A stretch of 64,000 nucleotides of DNA from Phycisphaerae bacterium (lineage in GTDB: Bacteria; Planctomycetota; Phycisphaerae; JAJVII01). Both the position numbers and the translations under genes were made by a program. Shown here in pieces: positions 39,841 through 46,002 of the stretch. The notes under the pieces were generated by a model. That model was not told the DNA's origin, made no database searches, and saw only the letters and a list, made by a program, of their open reading frames with translations. Each line of letters starts with the position of its first letter. Positions within the stretch are counted from its first letter, which is position 1. The stretch covers positions 1 through 64,000 of the forward strand of contig JAJVII010000051.1 of assembly GCA_022072085.1 (NCBI GenBank), in the 5' to 3' direction.

Positions 39841-40938
39841 TCACTTGACCGGCCAGACGGGCTTGCCGTCGCAGGCCAGATCCTTGATCCAGGACTCCTC
39901 GACCATCTTGACGACGTTGGCGGGAATCGGCACGTAGTCGAGCTTCATCGCCTGTTCCTGTCCGCTGGTGTAGCACCAGCTGAAGAACTTCAGGCACGCC
40001 GGGACGGTCCGGGCCCGCTCGGCCGGGATTTTCTTGTGCAGGAGGATGAAGCTGGCGCCGACGATCGGCCAGGAGGCGTCGCCGGGCTGGTCGGTCAGGA
40101 CCATGTAGTAACCGGGGGCGTGGGCCCAGTCGGCGTTGGCGGCGGCGGCCTGGAAGGCGTCCGCGGTCGGCGAGACCCACTTGCCGGCCTGGTTCTGGAG
40201 CTGCACGTAGTTCATCTTGTTCTGGATGACATAGGCGTATTCGACATAGCCGATAGACCCCGCGGCCAGATTGACGCGGCTGGCGACGCCCTCGTTGCCG
40301 TTTCCGCCGACGGCGGTCTTGGCCGGCCAGGAGACGGACTTGTTGTTGCCGACGCGCGTCTTCCAGTCGTTGGAGACCTTGGAGAGGTAGTTGGTGTAGA
40401 TCCAGGTCGTGCCCGAGCCGTCGGAACGGTTGACCGGGATGATCGCCAGGTCAGGCAGGGCCAGGTCGGGATTGCTGGTCTTGAGGTCCGCGTCGTTCCA
40501 GTTGGTGATCTCGCCGAGGTAGATCCTGGCCAGTTGGGTCGGGGTCAGCTTGAGCTGCCCGGGGGCCACGCCCTTGAGGTTCACCACGGGCACCACGCCG
40601 CCGATGATCATGGGGAACTGCATCAGCCCGCCCTTGTCCAGTTCCTCGGGGGTCAGCGGGGCGTCGGACGCGCCGAAGTCGACGGTGTTGTCGTTGATAG
40701 CCTTGATCCCGCCGCCCGAGCCGATGGACTGGTAGTTCATCTTCACGCCGCCGGAGACGTCGTGATACTTATCGGCCCACTTGCTGTAGACGGGGAACGG
40801 GAACGTCGCCCCCGCGCCGTTGATCGTGACGTTGGTCTTGGCGTTGGCGTCCCTCTTGCAGCCGGTGAACACCACCGGAATCAGCAGCGCGAGGGTCAGG
40901 ACGAGGCTCATCATGGCGACAGTCTGCTTGCGGCTCAT
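39841..40938 (-). CDS. pstS: phosphate-binding lipoprotein PstS
   Basis: PstS is the periplasmic high-affinity phosphate receptor of the Pst system. The 365-residue product has a lipoprotein signal with FTGC placing the lipidated cysteine at residue 27. It shows the PstS phosphate-binding blocks GAGATFPFPVYSKW, IGSGGGIKAI, DFGASDAPLT and NRSDGSGTTWIYTNYL. AAGGAG lies eight bases before the ATG. A Pho box with 11-bp periodicity precedes the promoter, so induction under phosphate limitation by a PhoB/PhoP-type regulator is expected. Confidence 0.97.
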   Translation of the reverse strand: MSRKQTVAMMSLVLTLALLIPVVFTGCKRDANAKTNVTINGAGATFPFPVYSKWADKYHDVSGGVKMNYQSIGSGGGIKAINDNTVDFGASDAPLTPEELDKGGLMQFPMIIGGVVPVVNLKGVAPGQLKLTPTQLARIYLGEITNWNDADLKTSNPDLALPDLAIIPVNRSDGSGTTWIYTNYLSKVSNDWKTRVGNNKSVSWPAKTAVGGNGNEGVASRVNLAAGSIGYVEYAYVIQNKMNYVQLQNQAGKWVSPTADAFQAAAANADWAHAPGYYMVLTDQPGDASWPIVGASFILLHKKIPAERARTVPACLKFFSWCYTSGQEQAMKLDYVPIPANVVKMVEESWIKDLACDGKPVWPVK

Positions 40939-40964
40939 AGAATCGCTCCTTATTTGTACGTTAG

Positions 40965-41005
40965 CCTATACCCGCACTGCTAAGGCGCGATTAAGAAGCG
41001 GTTAA
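40965..41005 (-). promoter_or_regulatory. Pho box and -10 element of the pst operon
   Basis: On the minus strand TTAAC (41001-41005), TTAAT (40990-40994) and TTAGC (40979-40983) start exactly 11 bases apart, the repeat spacing of PhoB/PhoP half-sites. TATAGG (40965-40970) follows eight bases after the last half-site, in place for a -10 box. No good -35 is present, which is typical of activated Pho promoters. Confidence 0.7.
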
Positions 41006-41204
41006 CATCCGGATAGCTCTATCAGGGCCCCCAAGCCGCACTTCTCCCGGCAGATACGCGAATTGTAAAGATTGCGATAACGTCGTTCAGCCCCCCTGCG
41101 GACCGCGTTTACAAAGTCCTGCGCTCGGTTGATGCCGCCGGTGTCGGGCGGCCTGACGAATTGACCGACGGTCTCGGGGCCTGCGGACGGAGCGGGATTG
41201 CAGC

Positions 41205-42071
41205 TCAAGCTCGCCCCTTGGGCGTGCGGGATTCCCCGTCGTGCCCGCGCGGGACGGCGCCGACCCAGCGCTCGTCCACCGGCTGGTTGGCCAGTTGATA
41301 GCGCGTGTCGCAGCTCAGGCGGTATTGCCCGCCGGCGTTGTTCAGCGACCCGTGCATCGTGAACATGCCGAAGACCATCGCGTCGCCCATCGCGAACTCG
41401 GCTGTCTGCCACTGCCCGCCCCACTTGGCGACGACGTCCAGCGGGTCGCGGCTGTACCAGCCGTCCGACTTGTCGCGGTCCACGTCGCTGCGTCCGTAGG
41501 TGTCGCGCAGGCCCGCGAAGCGGTGGCTGCCGACCAGCACGGCCAGCGGCCCGCGGTCGATGCCCACGTCGCAGAATGGCGTCCAGCAGGTGAACAGTTC
41601 CAGCGTGCCGCGGCCCATGTAGACCACGTCATAGTGGGCCCCGGTGTTGCTGCCCGGCGGCACGGCCCGCAGCCACTTGTAGGGGAAGGTGAAGACCTCG
41701 CCGCCGAGCAGGTCCGCGAAGAAGCTCATCACCCGCTCGCCTTCGAGCACCGAGAGCACCTCGTCGCTGCCGGCCACCTCCGGTACGCGGCTGAGCAGCC
41801 CGCCGCCCTTGACTGCGGGGTGGGCCCAGGCCTCGTCGAGCGGCCGGCTGCGGTCGAGCTGCCCCTTGCCGTCGAGGTAGCGGATCACCACGTCGCGGGC
41901 GGCCCGCACCCTGGCCGGGTCGTGCAGCCCGCGGATCAGCAGGTAGCCGTCCTCCGCCAGCCGCTCGTGCAGGCCCGCGCGATCGCCCAGAAGCCCGTTC
42001 GCGTCGCGCAGCCGCCCGAGCTGCGGCGAGTCCAGTGTCAACGTCTCATTCCCCATCGTGACGGTCTTCAT
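41205..42071 (-). CDS. phytanoyl-CoA dioxygenase (PhyH) family protein
   Basis: The 288-residue protein is a Fe(II)/2-oxoglutarate-dependent dioxygenase of the PhyH family. The metal triad is His146 and Asp148 (GAHYDVVYMG) with His240 (FTMHGSLNN), and Arg251 can bind 2-oxoglutarate. Tryptophan- and glycine-rich stretches around GPLAVLVGSHRF match bacterial PhyH proteins. The start at 42071 gives MKTVTMGNE; the second Met six codons later is possible. The substrate is unknown; bacterial relatives hydroxylate small secondary metabolites or amino acids. It stands alone and is divergent from nothing close. Confidence 0.85.
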   Translation of the reverse strand: MKTVTMGNETLTLDSPQLGRLRDANGLLGDRAGLHERLAEDGYLLIRGLHDPARVRAARDVVIRYLDGKGQLDRSRPLDEAWAHPAVKGGGLLSRVPEVAGSDEVLSVLEGERVMSFFADLLGGEVFTFPYKWLRAVPPGSNTGAHYDVVYMGRGTLELFTCWTPFCDVGIDRGPLAVLVGSHRFAGLRDTYGRSDVDRDKSDGWYSRDPLDVVAKWGGQWQTAEFAMGDAMVFGMFTMHGSLNNAGGQYRLSCDTRYQLANQPVDERWVGAVPRGHDGESRTPKGRA

Positions 42072-42152
42072 GTGCGCCTCGCTTGACGATTGTCGATGCG
42101 GACCGGCGTGAAAACTCGAGGGGATTCTAGGCGCACCGATGCGATGCGGCGA

Positions 42153-42569
42153 TCATCTGCCGGCGCGATCGAACGTCGCGAGTTGCGCGATCAGCGAAGC
42201 GTTGGCGGGCGGGAAGTTGAAACGGGGCAACTCCGTCGGCAGCACCCAGCGCAGTTCGCGCCCGTCGGGGGCCCGGGCCGGTTCGCCGGGTCCACGCAGC
42301 CGGCAAGTCACCGGAAAGAAGCACAGCCGCGCATGTGGATAGTCCCAGTCGAACGGGGGCAGGGCGGAGGCCGGGTCGGCCGCCAACCCGGTCTCCTCCA
42401 TAAGTTCCCGTATTGCAGCCTCTTGCGGAGATTCGCCCGGCTCGATCTTACCCCCGGGAAGTTCCCACAGCCCCCCCAGATCGGCTTCGGCAGGCCGCTT
42501 CACGATGCAAATTCGCCCGCTGTTACCAAAGCAGACGGCGAGTGCGATTTTCTTCCGAGAATAACGCAT
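42153..42569 (-). CDS. Nudix hydrolase, MutT/8-oxo-dGTP-type
   Basis: The 138-residue protein has a complete Nudix box from Gly40 to Leu62 (GKIEPGESPQEAAIRELMEE then TGL), with the metal-binding REx2EE core. The opening ALAVCFGNSGRICIVKR and the central GLWELPGGKIEPGE are typical of MutT-like enzymes that hydrolyse oxidised nucleotides such as 8-oxo-dGTP, removing mutagenic precursors. Length and fold are normal. It is divergent from the small-RNA promoter region and pyrK. The exact substrate cannot be fixed from the box alone. Confidence 0.88.
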   Translation of the reverse strand: MRYSRKKIALAVCFGNSGRICIVKRPAEADLGGLWELPGGKIEPGESPQEAAIRELMEETGLAADPASALPPFDWDYPHARLCFFPVTCRLRGPGEPARAPDGRELRWVLPTELPRFNFPPANASLIAQLATFDRAGR

Positions 42570-42602
42570 AAGATAAGCTACATGCTATACTTAAAAGAAT
42601 CA

Positions 42603-42631
42603 TTGACAGCCCGGAATTCCACCAGTATAGT
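42603..42631 (+). promoter_or_regulatory. strong sigma70-type promoter
   Basis: TTGACA (42603-42608), a 17-base spacer and TATAGT (42626-42631) form a near-consensus promoter, the best in the window. Predicted start is near 42638. No start codon with Shine-Dalgarno follows before the terminator at 42754. Confidence 0.85.
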
Positions 42632-42637
42632 GATTTC

Positions 42638-42754
42638 TGAGTCGCCTATTTCGAACATCCACCCCGGCCCCCGCGCCGGGGTTCAACAACTATACGGCTG
42701 CCTCTTAGCCGTGGCAACTTCCGGACGGTTCACAAGCTGCCCGGAAGTTTTTTT
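42638..42754 (+). ncRNA. probable small non-coding RNA (about 117 nt)
   Basis: The interval between a near-consensus promoter and a perfect terminator holds three consecutive hairpins. The first is ACCCCGGC/GCCGGGGT with a six-base loop (42661-42682). The second is ACGGCT/AGCCGT with loop GCCTCTT (42694-42712). The third is the terminator AACTTCCGG/CCGGAAGTT plus seven Ts. The second loop contains CCTC, complementary to Shine-Dalgarno GAGG, as in several target-binding sRNAs. No open reading frame of useful length lies inside. An alternative is a pyrK leader with premature termination, but pyrK has its own promoter further downstream. I do not recognise a known RNA family. Confidence 0.7.
42716..42754 (+). 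terminator. intrinsic terminator of the small RNA
   Basis: AACTTCCGG (42716-42724) pairs with CCGGAAGTT (42741-42749), with TTTTTTT running from 42748 to 42754. Strong stem and U-run in ideal arrangement. Confidence 0.9.
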
Positions 42755-42857
42755 GCGCGCGTCGCGCGGCCGCGCGCCTCTGAAACTTCGCACGCGCAAT
42801 GCGAAGTTGAAGCTGAGCTTGAAGTTGAACCCGCTTCCCGGTTCCTCGCGCAAACGC

Positions 42858-42886
42858 TTGGACGCCTCGCGCGGGCGCGGTATTAT
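42858..42886 (+). promoter_or_regulatory. pyrK promoter, start point at the ATG (leaderless)
   Basis: TTGGAC (42858-42863), a 17-base spacer and TATTAT (42881-42886) place the transcription start at about 42893-42894, which is the A of the pyrK ATG. No Shine-Dalgarno precedes that ATG, consistent with a leaderless mRNA. Confidence 0.6.
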
Positions 42887-42893
42887 CCCGGCG

Positions 42894-43865
42894 ATGAGCG
42901 CCACGACCCATCCGCGCGGCCTGTTCGACGCGCAGGTCATCTCGAATCGCCAGATCTGTCGCGAGCATTTCCGCCTCGTGCTGTCGGTGAAGGATTTCCC
43001 CGCGGCTGCGCCCGGCCAGTTCGTCCAACTCGGCTGCCGCGATCCGCACGCGCCGCCTGACGAGCCCGATGAGCATGAGTGGATCGACGCCGACGACCCC
43101 GGCCTGCGGACGCGCTCGCTGGTCGCGCCGACGCCGCTGCTGCGAAGGCCGTTCTCGCTCGCGGGCGCCGAGCCCGATCCGCAGCGCCCCGGCTGCACGC
43201 TGCTGGAGATCATCCATCGCGTCGTCGGCCTGGGGACTGCCCGGCTGGCGGGCCTGCGCGAGGGGGACGCGATCGACCTGCTCGGCCCGCTGGGCAACGG
43301 GTTTCCCCTGCCGCGCGCGGGGCAGCGGGCTGTCCTGGTCGGCGGCGGCGTGGGCATCCCGCCGATGATCTACCTGGCCCGGGCGCTGGGCGCCGCGGAC
43401 GTTGGCGGCGTCGCCGTCTGCGGCGTGACGACGGCCGACCTGCTGCCGCTGACCTGGGCCGACGGCGTTGCGGCCGACCCGCAGGGCCTGCCGACCCGCT
43501 GCATCCGCGAGTTCGCCGACTTCGGCATCGACGCGGTGGTCGCCAGCGATGACGGCAGCGTCGGCGTGCCCGGCCGCGTCACGGTCGCGCTCCAGCGCGT
43601 GCTGGACCATCTGGCGCTGCCGGCCGGCGACGTGGTCGTCTACACCTGCGGGCCCGAGCGGATGATGCGGGCGGTGACCGAGATGTCGCAGGCCCGCGGG
43701 CTGACCACGTGGGTCTGCATGGAGCGTTCGATGGCCTGCGGCATGGGAACCTGCCAGAGTTGCGTCTGCCGCGTGAACGACAAGTCGTCCGACGACGGCT
43801 GGCGCTACCGCCTGGTCTGCACCGACGGCCCGGTCTTCGACGGCCGTGTGCTGATCTGGGACTGA
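42894..43865 (+). CDS. pyrK: dihydroorotate dehydrogenase electron-transfer subunit PyrK
   Basis: PyrK passes electrons from dihydroorotate dehydrogenase B to NAD. The 323-residue product has the FAD-binding LLRRPFSLAG motif, a NAD-binding GGGVGIPPMIYLAR motif, and a C-terminal 2Fe-2S cluster site with Cys282, Cys287, Cys290 and Cys309 (MACGMGTCQSC, then VCTDGPVFDG), matching well-studied PyrK proteins. An insert of about 35 residues near residue 50 (rich in Asp/Glu/Pro) is longer than usual. The start is the ATG at 42894; the promoter places the transcript start on it. pyrD follows after 52 bases, as expected for a class 1B enzyme. Confidence 0.93.
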   Translation: MSATTHPRGLFDAQVISNRQICREHFRLVLSVKDFPAAAPGQFVQLGCRDPHAPPDEPDEHEWIDADDPGLRTRSLVAPTPLLRRPFSLAGAEPDPQRPGCTLLEIIHRVVGLGTARLAGLREGDAIDLLGPLGNGFPLPRAGQRAVLVGGGVGIPPMIYLARALGAADVGGVAVCGVTTADLLPLTWADGVAADPQGLPTRCIREFADFGIDAVVASDDGSVGVPGRVTVALQRVLDHLALPAGDVVVYTCGPERMMRAVTEMSQARGLTTWVCMERSMACGMGTCQSCVCRVNDKSSDDGWRYRLVCTDGPVFDGRVLIWD

Positions 43866-43917
43866 ACGCGAACGCGGATTGTGCTAGAATGGGCCCGCCC
43901 GGACCCGAGCCGACGGA

Positions 43918-44916
43918 GTGCAACCGATTTTGACTGACGCCGCGACACAACCCGACGTTGACCTCTCGGTCGATTTCTGCGGGATTGCGATGAAGAACCC
44001 GCTGACCACGGCCAGCGGGACTTCCGGCTACGCGTTCGAGTACGGCGACTTCGTCGACCTGCGGCTGCTTGGGGCGTTCGTCACCAAGTCGATCACGCTG
44101 CACCCGCGCAAGGGCAACGCCCCGCCGCGGATCATCGAGACCCGCGCGGGCATGCTCAACGCGATCGGCCTGGCCAACGTCGGGCTGGAGGCGTTCGTCG
44201 CTGAGAAGGTCCCCCAGCTCCGCGAGATGGGCCTGCCGGTGTTCGTCAACGTCGCGGGCACCGCGATCGACGACTACTGCCAGGTGGCCCGCCGCCTCAA
44301 CGAGGTGGACGTCGTCCGCGGGCTGGAGCTGAACATCAGTTGCCCCAACGTCAAGGAGGGCGGCATCAGCTTCGGCACCGACTGTGGCCAGGTGGCCGGG
44401 ATCACGTCGGCCATCCGCGCTGCGGCCCCCGACAAGGTGCTGGTGGTCAAGCTCTCGCCCAACGTGACCGACATCGCCGCGACGGCCGCCGCCGCCGTCG
44501 ATGCCGGCGCCGACGCCCTGAGTCTGGTCAACACTTTCACCGCGATGGCCGTCGACGTGGACCGCCGCCGCCCGATGCTTTCCAACGGCAACGGCGGGCT
44601 GTCGGGACCGGCCATCCGCCCGATCGCCGTCTATATGGTCCACCGCGTCTACTCGCAGGTGGCCCGCAAGCACAACATTCCGATCATGGGCATGGGCGGC
44701 ATCCAGACCGCCCGCGACGCCCTGGAGTTCCTGATCGCCGGGGCGACCGCCCTGAGCGTGGGCACGGCGCTGTTCGTCGATCCGACCGCCCCGGTGAAGA
44801 TTCTGGACGGGCTGGCGGACTACTGCCGCCGGCACAACCTGTCGGCCCTTCGCGAGGTCATCGGCTCACTGCAATTCCCCGAGCCGGGCAAGGGCTACAA
44901 GTCAACGTACGCGTGA
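43918..44916 (+). CDS. pyrD: dihydroorotate dehydrogenase B catalytic subunit PyrD
   Basis: PyrD oxidises dihydroorotate to orotate in pyrimidine synthesis. The 332-residue FMN barrel has NPLTTASGTSGYAFEY, the active-site loop ELNISCPNVKEGG with catalytic Cys (class 1B), SLVNTFTAMAVDVDRRRPML and GMGGIQTARDALEFLIAGA for FMN binding. The class fits its partner pyrK just upstream. The start is uncertain: GTG at 43918 is used here, but TTG at 43930, 11 bases after GGAG, is also reasonable. A -10-like TAGAAT lies upstream, so some independent transcription is possible. Confidence 0.95.
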   Translation: MQPILTDAATQPDVDLSVDFCGIAMKNPLTTASGTSGYAFEYGDFVDLRLLGAFVTKSITLHPRKGNAPPRIIETRAGMLNAIGLANVGLEAFVAEKVPQLREMGLPVFVNVAGTAIDDYCQVARRLNEVDVVRGLELNISCPNVKEGGISFGTDCGQVAGITSAIRAAAPDKVLVVKLSPNVTDIAATAAAAVDAGADALSLVNTFTAMAVDVDRRRPMLSNGNGGLSGPAIRPIAVYMVHRVYSQVARKHNIPIMGMGGIQTARDALEFLIAGATALSVGTALFVDPTAPVKILDGLADYCRRHNLSALREVIGSLQFPEPGKGYKSTYA

Positions 44917-44985
44917 CGGCGCGTTCGCGTCGCCGCGCTTTCGACAGACGGTCGCTCGTTTCATCTCTGCCGGAAGGAGGCAAAC

Positions 44986-45597
44986 ATGTTGCGCTGTCTG
45001 ATCGCCGGTGTGCTCGGCGCCGTCGTGGCGTTTGCCTGGAGCTGGTTCTCCTACGAGGTGCTGACCTGGCACAACATGACGCTCTGGGAGCTGCCCCGGC
45101 ACGCGGAGTTCCAGGCCGAGCTGATCCGCCAGTTCCCCCCCAAGTCGAACGACGAAATCTACGAGCCCGGCGTCTACATGTTCCCCTACCGCGACAAGGC
45201 CAAGAGCGAAGACTGGCAGAAGGCCTACGCCTCCAGCCCGGCCGGTCTGCTGTTCGTCTATCCCAGCGGCGGGCCGCCGATCACCCACCGCACCCATGTC
45301 AAGTTCGGCCTGGGCTGCCTGGCCTGCGCCCTGCTGGCGGCGGTGCTGCTGTCGCTGGCGTCCGGGTCGCTGCCGGGATATTTCCAGCGCGTCTTCTTCG
45401 TGATGGTGCTGGCGCTGTTCGCGGCGGTGGCGGCCTACCTGCCGCTGTGGGATTACCTCTTCCATCCGGCGCCCTACGTACTGGCGATGGTGACCGACCT
45501 GATCGCCGCCTGGCTGCTGGCGGGCCTGGTCATGGCGGCCGTCATCGGGCCCAGGGCCAAGCCGTCCGCCCAGCCCGAAGCCAAGCCCGCGGCCTGA
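44986..45597 (+). CDS. hypothetical four-helix membrane protein
   Basis: I do not recognise this 203-residue protein. It has an N-terminal helix (about 4-22), a soluble loop of about 75 residues with PGVYMFPYRDKAKSEDW, three more helices (about 106-124, 132-150, 164-185) and an Ala/Lys/Pro tail. The loop would be outside the cytoplasm. GGAAGGAGG lies close before the ATG. It follows pyrD by 69 bases and may be read through from that operon, but its role is unknown. Confidence 0.6.
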   Translation: MLRCLIAGVLGAVVAFAWSWFSYEVLTWHNMTLWELPRHAEFQAELIRQFPPKSNDEIYEPGVYMFPYRDKAKSEDWQKAYASSPAGLLFVYPSGGPPITHRTHVKFGLGCLACALLAAVLLSLASGSLPGYFQRVFFVMVLALFAAVAAYLPLWDYLFHPAPYVLAMVTDLIAAWLLAGLVMAAVIGPRAKPSAQPEAKPAA

Positions 45598-45665
45598 CGG
45601 CGCGCCCGGCTGCCCTTGGACGGTTGCGGCGGGGGGCCGTGGACGCGCGCGCCAAGAGGGGTCTC

Positions 45666-45932
45666 ACCACAGAGGCACCGAGGCACAGAGAAGAAGAGAG
45701 GGCATCCGCAGATTACGCAGATGACGCAGATTCGTAAGAGAAGAGGGGAGAGCCGCGAATGGACGCGAATCGACGCGAATGGAAGAGAGAGAGTTCTGAA
45801 TTCTCAATCCTGATTTCTGATTCGCGTTCATTCGCGTGAATTCGCGGTTCTCCGTTCTTCTCCTCTATCCCATCTGCGTAATCTGCGGATGTATTCTTCT
45901 TCTCTTCTCTGTGCCTCCGTGCCTCTGTGGTG
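45666..45932. repeat. long intergenic inverted repeat built of short periodic units
   Basis: The left arm (45666 to about 45783) and right arm (about 45821-45932) are imperfect inverted copies over about 115 bases. Each contains the same ordered phrases: CCACAGAGGCAC and GGCACAGAG (8-base period), CCGCAGATTACGCAGAT (9-base period), and GCGAAT...ACGCGAAT (10-base period). No gene lies in the 430-base gap between the membrane-protein gene and proC, and the predicted proC promoter begins just after the repeat. Confidence 0.8.
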
Positions 45933-45973
45933 GATATTCTTCTTGCAGGATTCAGTAGACGCTCGCCTGCGCC

Positions 45974-46002
45974 CTGCCATCGCCCGGCGAATCCGCTATA
46001 CT
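45974..46002 (+). promoter_or_regulatory. sigma70-type promoter of proC
   Basis: CTGCCA (45974-45979), 17 bases, TATACT (45997-46002). Predicted start near 46009 gives a short leader with TTTGGAGG as Shine-Dalgarno. Confidence 0.55.

Follow-up and report, generated by a model that had tools for sequence, protein, structure and literature searches.

A predicted small non-coding RNA with a core conserved across the class Phycisphaerae

Between a divergent Nudix hydrolase gene and the pyrK-pyrD genes of a Phycisphaerae bacterium, the window (the whole 64,000-nt stretch of DNA that was analyzed) very probably carries an independent gene for a small RNA of a new family, trans-acting or protein-binding and belonging to the class Phycisphaerae. 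The bases for an independent gene are a conserved core, a near-consensus sigma-70 promoter, the usual occurrence as a single copy and the persistence of the RNA as its neighbors change. The location had been proposed in a first-pass annotation made from the letters of the DNA, and matches of the flanking genes to PF00293 on one side and to PF10418 and PF01180 on the other agree with it (Table 1).

Judged from its sequence, the RNA is the founding member of a new family within a known kind of RNA, the small non-coding RNAs. The first-pass annotation recognized no known RNA family, and our searches of Rfam 15 with the window RNA and 18 homologous loci, at gathering and at permissive thresholds, likewise retrieved no family match. 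The top Rfam score of the window RNA was 21.2 bits, for ncS54 (RF02871), a Burkholderia sRNA model with a gathering score of 43; this match rests on the terminator stem, and the cores of the homologues had no Rfam match. We found no description of the RNA in Rfam or in the literature, subscription and unpublished literature lying outside the scope of the search, and the literature on genome-scale discovery of non-coding RNAs that we found makes no mention of planctomycetes. Catalogued sRNAs are very scarce in the Planctomycetes-Verrucomicrobia-Chlamydiae group as a whole, for which only 8 distinct annotated ones have been tallied (PMC9029176).

Table 1. Features of the putative RNA gene and its surroundings (window coordinates)
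Feature	Position	Strand	Details
Divergent Nudix hydrolase gene	42153..42569	-	PF00293, E 5.7e-23
Sigma-70 type promoter	42603..42631	+	TTGACA-N17-TATAGT; 11/12 consensus bases
Predicted full transcript	42638..42754	+	~117 nt; taken from 6-7 nt past the -10 box to the final terminator T
Variable 5' domain	42638..42689	+	species-specific hairpin 42661-42682 (CCCCGGCCCCCGCGCCGGGG); diverged in genome G001
Core hairpin H1	42694..42712	+	ACGGCUG-CCUCU-UAGCCGU; CGGC/GCCG stem nearly invariant, loop variable (69 loci)
GCCGUGGC (end of H1 plus linker)	42708-42715	+	invariant, save in two loci of family f4
Linker	42713..42716	+	UGGC; shared by nearly all of the 69 loci
Intrinsic terminator	42717..42754	+	stem ACUUCCGG...CCGGAAGU plus U7 (42748-42754)
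Separate pyrK promoter	42857..42886	+	TTGGAC-spacer-TATTAT; ~7 bases 5' of the ATG at 42894
pyrK, dihydroorotate dehydrogenase electron-transfer subunit	42894..43865	+	pyrD next; matches of the pair PF10418, E 3.3e-14, and PF01180, E 6.6e-78

Transcription unit and predicted fold

When both strands of positions 40000-46000 were compared, the promoter named in the first-pass annotation did rank best, and the region held 4 promoter-like sites versus 0.4 expected. In the other genome of the same family (G001), the -35 and -10 hexamers are identical to those of the window. Within 130 nt upstream of the core, 54 of 70 homologous loci have a promoter that agrees with the consensus at 10 or more of its 12 bases, versus 34 of 1440 random 130-nt control segments of the same loci (2.4%). 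The terminator of the first-pass annotation is present too and reads ACTTCCGG...CCGGAAGT followed by seven Ts, ending at 42754; an internal mismatch in its stem hid it from a simple terminator scan. By sequence, a promoter of its own and an intrinsic terminator bound a short non-coding transcript, as in trans-encoded sRNAs. Transcription would be strong and fairly constitutive, and the transcript would end at its own terminator.

Predicted transcripts of relatives have a median length of 110 nt (range 74-152). The first-pass annotation saw no plausible reading frame between promoter and terminator. Relatives differ by one-base indels in the H1 loop, which excludes a conserved reading frame, and they share no start codon; on these two grounds coding potential was ruled out.

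The RNA (42638-42755) is predicted to fold with a minimum free energy of -47.3 kcal/mol, compared to -32.3 kcal/mol in dinucleotide shuffles (z -4.75; 0/200 shuffles as good). All three hairpins reported earlier are present in the predicted fold of the window (42661-42682, 42694-42712 and 42717-42748), but relatives do not generally have all three, since conservation of the 5' C/G hairpin fails even inside the same family. Comparison with G001 showed a core conserved around a diverged 5' domain. The length of this domain varies widely among relatives, and in some of them the predicted RNA begins almost at H1, with next to no 5' domain. The variable 5' domain may be dispensable for the shared function.

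Conservation of the core and its distribution

When 60 relatives were searched at the DNA level, one clear match came from the same family, and a series of weak ones all fell on the same 3' part of the query. Each match, when read, consisted of TTGACA-17-TATAGT, a variable 5' stretch, CGGCU-loop-AGCCG, UGGC and a terminator ACUUCCGG..CCGGAAGU-UUUUUUU. Covariance models, which the first-pass annotation had suggested for finding homologues, found them class-wide. Model R1, built from eight loci, matched 152/298 class genomes at E <= 0.01; model R2, built from 69 aligned loci, matched 158 of the 298 sampled Phycisphaerae genomes at E <= 0.001, nearly always in one copy and over ~21 family-level groups. 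Applied to a phylum-wide sample of 392 genomes, R2 gave 20 matches in the same class; outside it there were only four, all weak and close to the threshold (E 4e-4 to 1e-3), which suggests that the rest of the Planctomycetota lacks the core almost entirely. A pattern scan of named genomes yielded 96 stretches; among the 80 of these that were listed, the titles read Phycisphaerae, Phycisphaerales, Sedimentisphaerales, Tepidisphaeraceae, Humisphaera or Planctomycetota, and a few look misassigned. Contigs of Anaerohalosphaeraceae and Sedimentisphaerales are among those that carry the core. Families f2, f5, f11 and f13 had no convincing R2 match, and we recognized no such RNA on reading their regions upstream of pyrK, where some loci are of uncertain orientation. 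Weak second R2 matches of 28-29 bits were seen in three species of one genus in family f16 (G034:C50:12320-12380, G041:C7:6272-6332 and G048:C17:37559-37619), each of which may be a paralogue or just a terminator that resembles the one in the model.

In the alignment of 69 sequences, 95.6% of cells hold standard pairs versus 81.0% in shuffles, and the covariation score of 0.425 exceeds that of shuffles (0.156 +/- 0.009) and of slid pairings (0.05-0.11). Fitting the sequences to the model structure makes the alignment lean towards it; despite this lean, the comparison with slides and shuffles puts the predicted terminator helix beyond doubt, its stem being paired in 97.6% of cells, with 10 of 11 pairs varying on both sides. 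The conserved RNA structure typical of trans-encoded sRNAs is hence seen in the terminator helix, invariant H1 being uninformative in this respect. The CGGC/GCCG stem of H1 is paired in 96.4% of cells across the 69 loci and changes mainly from C-G to U-G. Since compensatory changes are absent and the stem is mostly invariant, the evidence for its pairing comes from conservation and folding rather than from covariation. Because CGGC/GCCG hardly varies, the sequence of the stem itself seems to be under constraint while the loop is free. In the two exceptional f4 loci, the linker reads UAGC and GCCGUAGC takes the place of GCCGUGGC.

The first-pass annotation singled out the C-rich loop GCCTCTT, which contains the CCUCU loop of the second hairpin, as a possible anti-Shine-Dalgarno (anti-SD) site. 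This proposal did not survive comparison, as the loop is not conserved: it reads CUUUUC in G001, is U-rich in most loci, UUCG or GCAA in f4, and carries long inserted hairpins in f9. C-rich anti-SD sRNAs, such as the cuckoo RNAs of alphaproteobacteria and AbcR, share a C-rich loop with the RNA in the window's genome alone, and differ from it in that this loop is not kept in its relatives. A conserved C-rich loop complementary to the SD sequence is therefore not a property of this family, whose loops are variable and mostly U-rich. In f9 (L044, L083 and L084) the extra hairpin in the H1 loop measures 20-35 nt, so the loop tolerates large insertions.

The terminator loop GGAUCGGAGCC or GGAUAGGAGCC is common to f4, f7, f15 and f18 (for example L091, L100 and L038), and CAGUGGAUGA occurs in f16 and f22. 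A pseudoknot between the linker UGGC and the terminator loop was considered on inspection of the alignment and set aside, being feasible in a few families only.

Candidate modes of action

We propose that the RNA would act in trans without Hfq, through GCCGUGGC at the foot of H1, and that this element would pair with a few mRNAs or, about as likely, bind a protein. We lean slightly towards base pairing with few mRNAs, which is favored by precedent, although the constrained stem sequence argues for protein binding.

It is quite possible that the RNA is a trans-acting, base-pairing sRNA, in which H1, being weak, opens and frees GCCGUGGC to seed pairing with a single mRNA or a small number of them, independently of Hfq. 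At 8 nt, the invariant stretch is as long as sRNA seeds usually are, the H1 loop and 5' domain are free to vary, and promoter and terminator are laid out as in trans-encoded sRNAs. In predicted ensembles the linker is partly accessible, but the seed-like part of GCCGUGGC is mostly paired, and the stable UUCG and GCAA loops of f4 would hinder the opening of H1. We also looked for pairing sites in 400-kb samples of G055 and G242 (~0.8 Mb in total), with a crude ORF-based gene call. Neither GCCACGGC, the complement of GCCGUGGC, nor its 6-7-mers were enriched near the starts of ~600 genes, which counts against base pairing and led us to reject broad, as opposed to few-target, mRNA seeding by GCCGUGGC. 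There was also no enrichment of GCCACGGC in the 5' regions of pyrK or the Nudix gene, and these two genes were rejected as pairing targets with a duplex z of about 0. If base pairing is the true mode, a target site might be expected to read GCCACGGC in most families and to change to GCUACGGC wherever an f4 genome carries GCCGUAGC.

With its sigma-70 promoter, length of 75-150 nt, hairpin plus intrinsic terminator and lack of an ORF, the RNA resembles the trans-encoded intergenic sRNAs of enterobacteria, which are built from a promoter, 5' module, seed region and Rho-independent terminator. It differs from them in belonging to a class without detected Hfq, in that no target was found, in a conserved element that lies partly in a stem and in its restriction to the Phycisphaerae. 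Hfq was found in 0/41 class genomes by a search that does score in control genomes, E. coli and others; an Hfq-dependent sRNA would require its presence.

A tentative alternative is that H1 and UGGC, possibly with the terminator hairpin, are bound by an RNA-binding protein or by RNA polymerase, and that the abundant RNA titrates or guides this partner in the manner of 6S RNA or CsrB, though with a different partner. The paired stem has an invariant rather than covarying sequence, near-consensus promoters suggest abundance, and the RNA is usually single copy throughout the class; the negative searches for base-pairing partners and for Hfq point the same way. However, we saw no repeated protein-binding motifs, and the RNA does not stand in for 6S RNA, since the genome has a true one at a separate site (G000:C5:39779-39962). 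The RNA is like 6S RNA (RF00013) in being usually single copy and broadly kept with a strong promoter, but the long bulged duplex is missing from it, and neither the window RNA nor its homologous loci matched RF00013 in Rfam 15. A role as a CsrA sponge was rejected on inspection, since GGA occurs in some terminator loops but never as ANGGA and not in all families. Possible, but less likely than not, is the wider proposal of an abundant, housekeeping-type Phycisphaerae RNA that binds a dedicated protein via CGGC..GCCGUGGC and, in this Hfq-lacking group, would serve as a lineage-specific global regulator with a role like that of 6S RNA or CsrB but an unrelated structure.

Because Phycisphaerae have no detectable Hfq, an RNA kept over ~21 family-level groups would offer an entry point to Hfq-independent RNA regulation in the Planctomycetota. 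The alignment and covariance model can be used to annotate the RNA in many metagenome-assembled genomes and to seek it in existing metatranscriptomes.

Gene order and alternatives involving pyrK or 16S rRNA

A divergent Nudix neighbor was detected at 20/72 RNA loci, and pyrK and/or pyrD lie downstream of the RNA at ~40 of the 72, for which reason Nudix-RNA-pyrK is probably the ancestral order. Either neighbor is absent at some loci. The downstream gene, identified by reading translations and not from a family search, encodes a DegT aminotransferase in f12, lysyl-tRNA synthetase (LysS) in f6, a HAD hydrolase in f10 and panC in G044; in f4 and f15 it is a convergent carbon-starvation gene (CstA).

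Pyrimidine operons are classical targets of attenuation, and pyrK follows closely in many families, so that the RNA could be a cis-acting pyrKD leader in which conditional read-through of the terminator controls pyrimidine synthesis. We consider this unlikely. In the window, pyrK appears to be leaderless and not to depend on read-through, and several relatives have an equivalent promoter directly 5' of the leaderless pyrK start. Some other families keep the RNA although the genes downstream of it are unrelated or convergent, and a number of the RNAs offer hardly any 5' domain with which to sense. PyrR-binding and other pyr operon attenuators share with the RNA a terminator that precedes a pyr gene. 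A leader of this kind would be expected always to lie upstream of, and be transcribed into, the pyr gene that it regulates; here the gene that follows is served by a separate promoter, and loci without pyrK retain the RNA. These differences argue for the independent gene that we prefer. An antisense RNA to the 5' flank of the 16S rRNA 530 loop (GGAAG..GCCACGGCUAAC), an attractive idea in view of the striking resemblance of the core's reverse complement to this segment in some families, is extremely improbable and was rejected, along with 23S rRNA as a partner, because the RNA stays GCCGUGGC while the 16S segment varies by family (GCCACGGC, GUCACGGC, GCCUCGGC, GGGCCGGC and others), and because the RNA's own genome reads GCCUCGGC in its 16S rRNA and its own rRNA operon stretch lacks GCCACGGC.

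Many pyrK genes of Phycisphaerae have a -10 box 6-12 bases ahead of the ATG (42857-42896 in the window; also L094, L117, L120 and L138) and thus appear to be leaderless. In L120, the -35 hexamer of pyrK, TTGACA, overlaps the end of the T run of the RNA gene. An SD-like motif was seen within 20 bases upstream of ~40% of the crudely called genes in stretches L304-L343 (114/289 in G055 and 119/322 in G242), a low share that fits frequent non-SD or leaderless starts. Finally, L006, L014, L052, L053, L061 and L063 have a tRNA gene on the opposite strand, ~0.7-1.0 kb upstream of the RNA, which suggests a wider conserved neighborhood.
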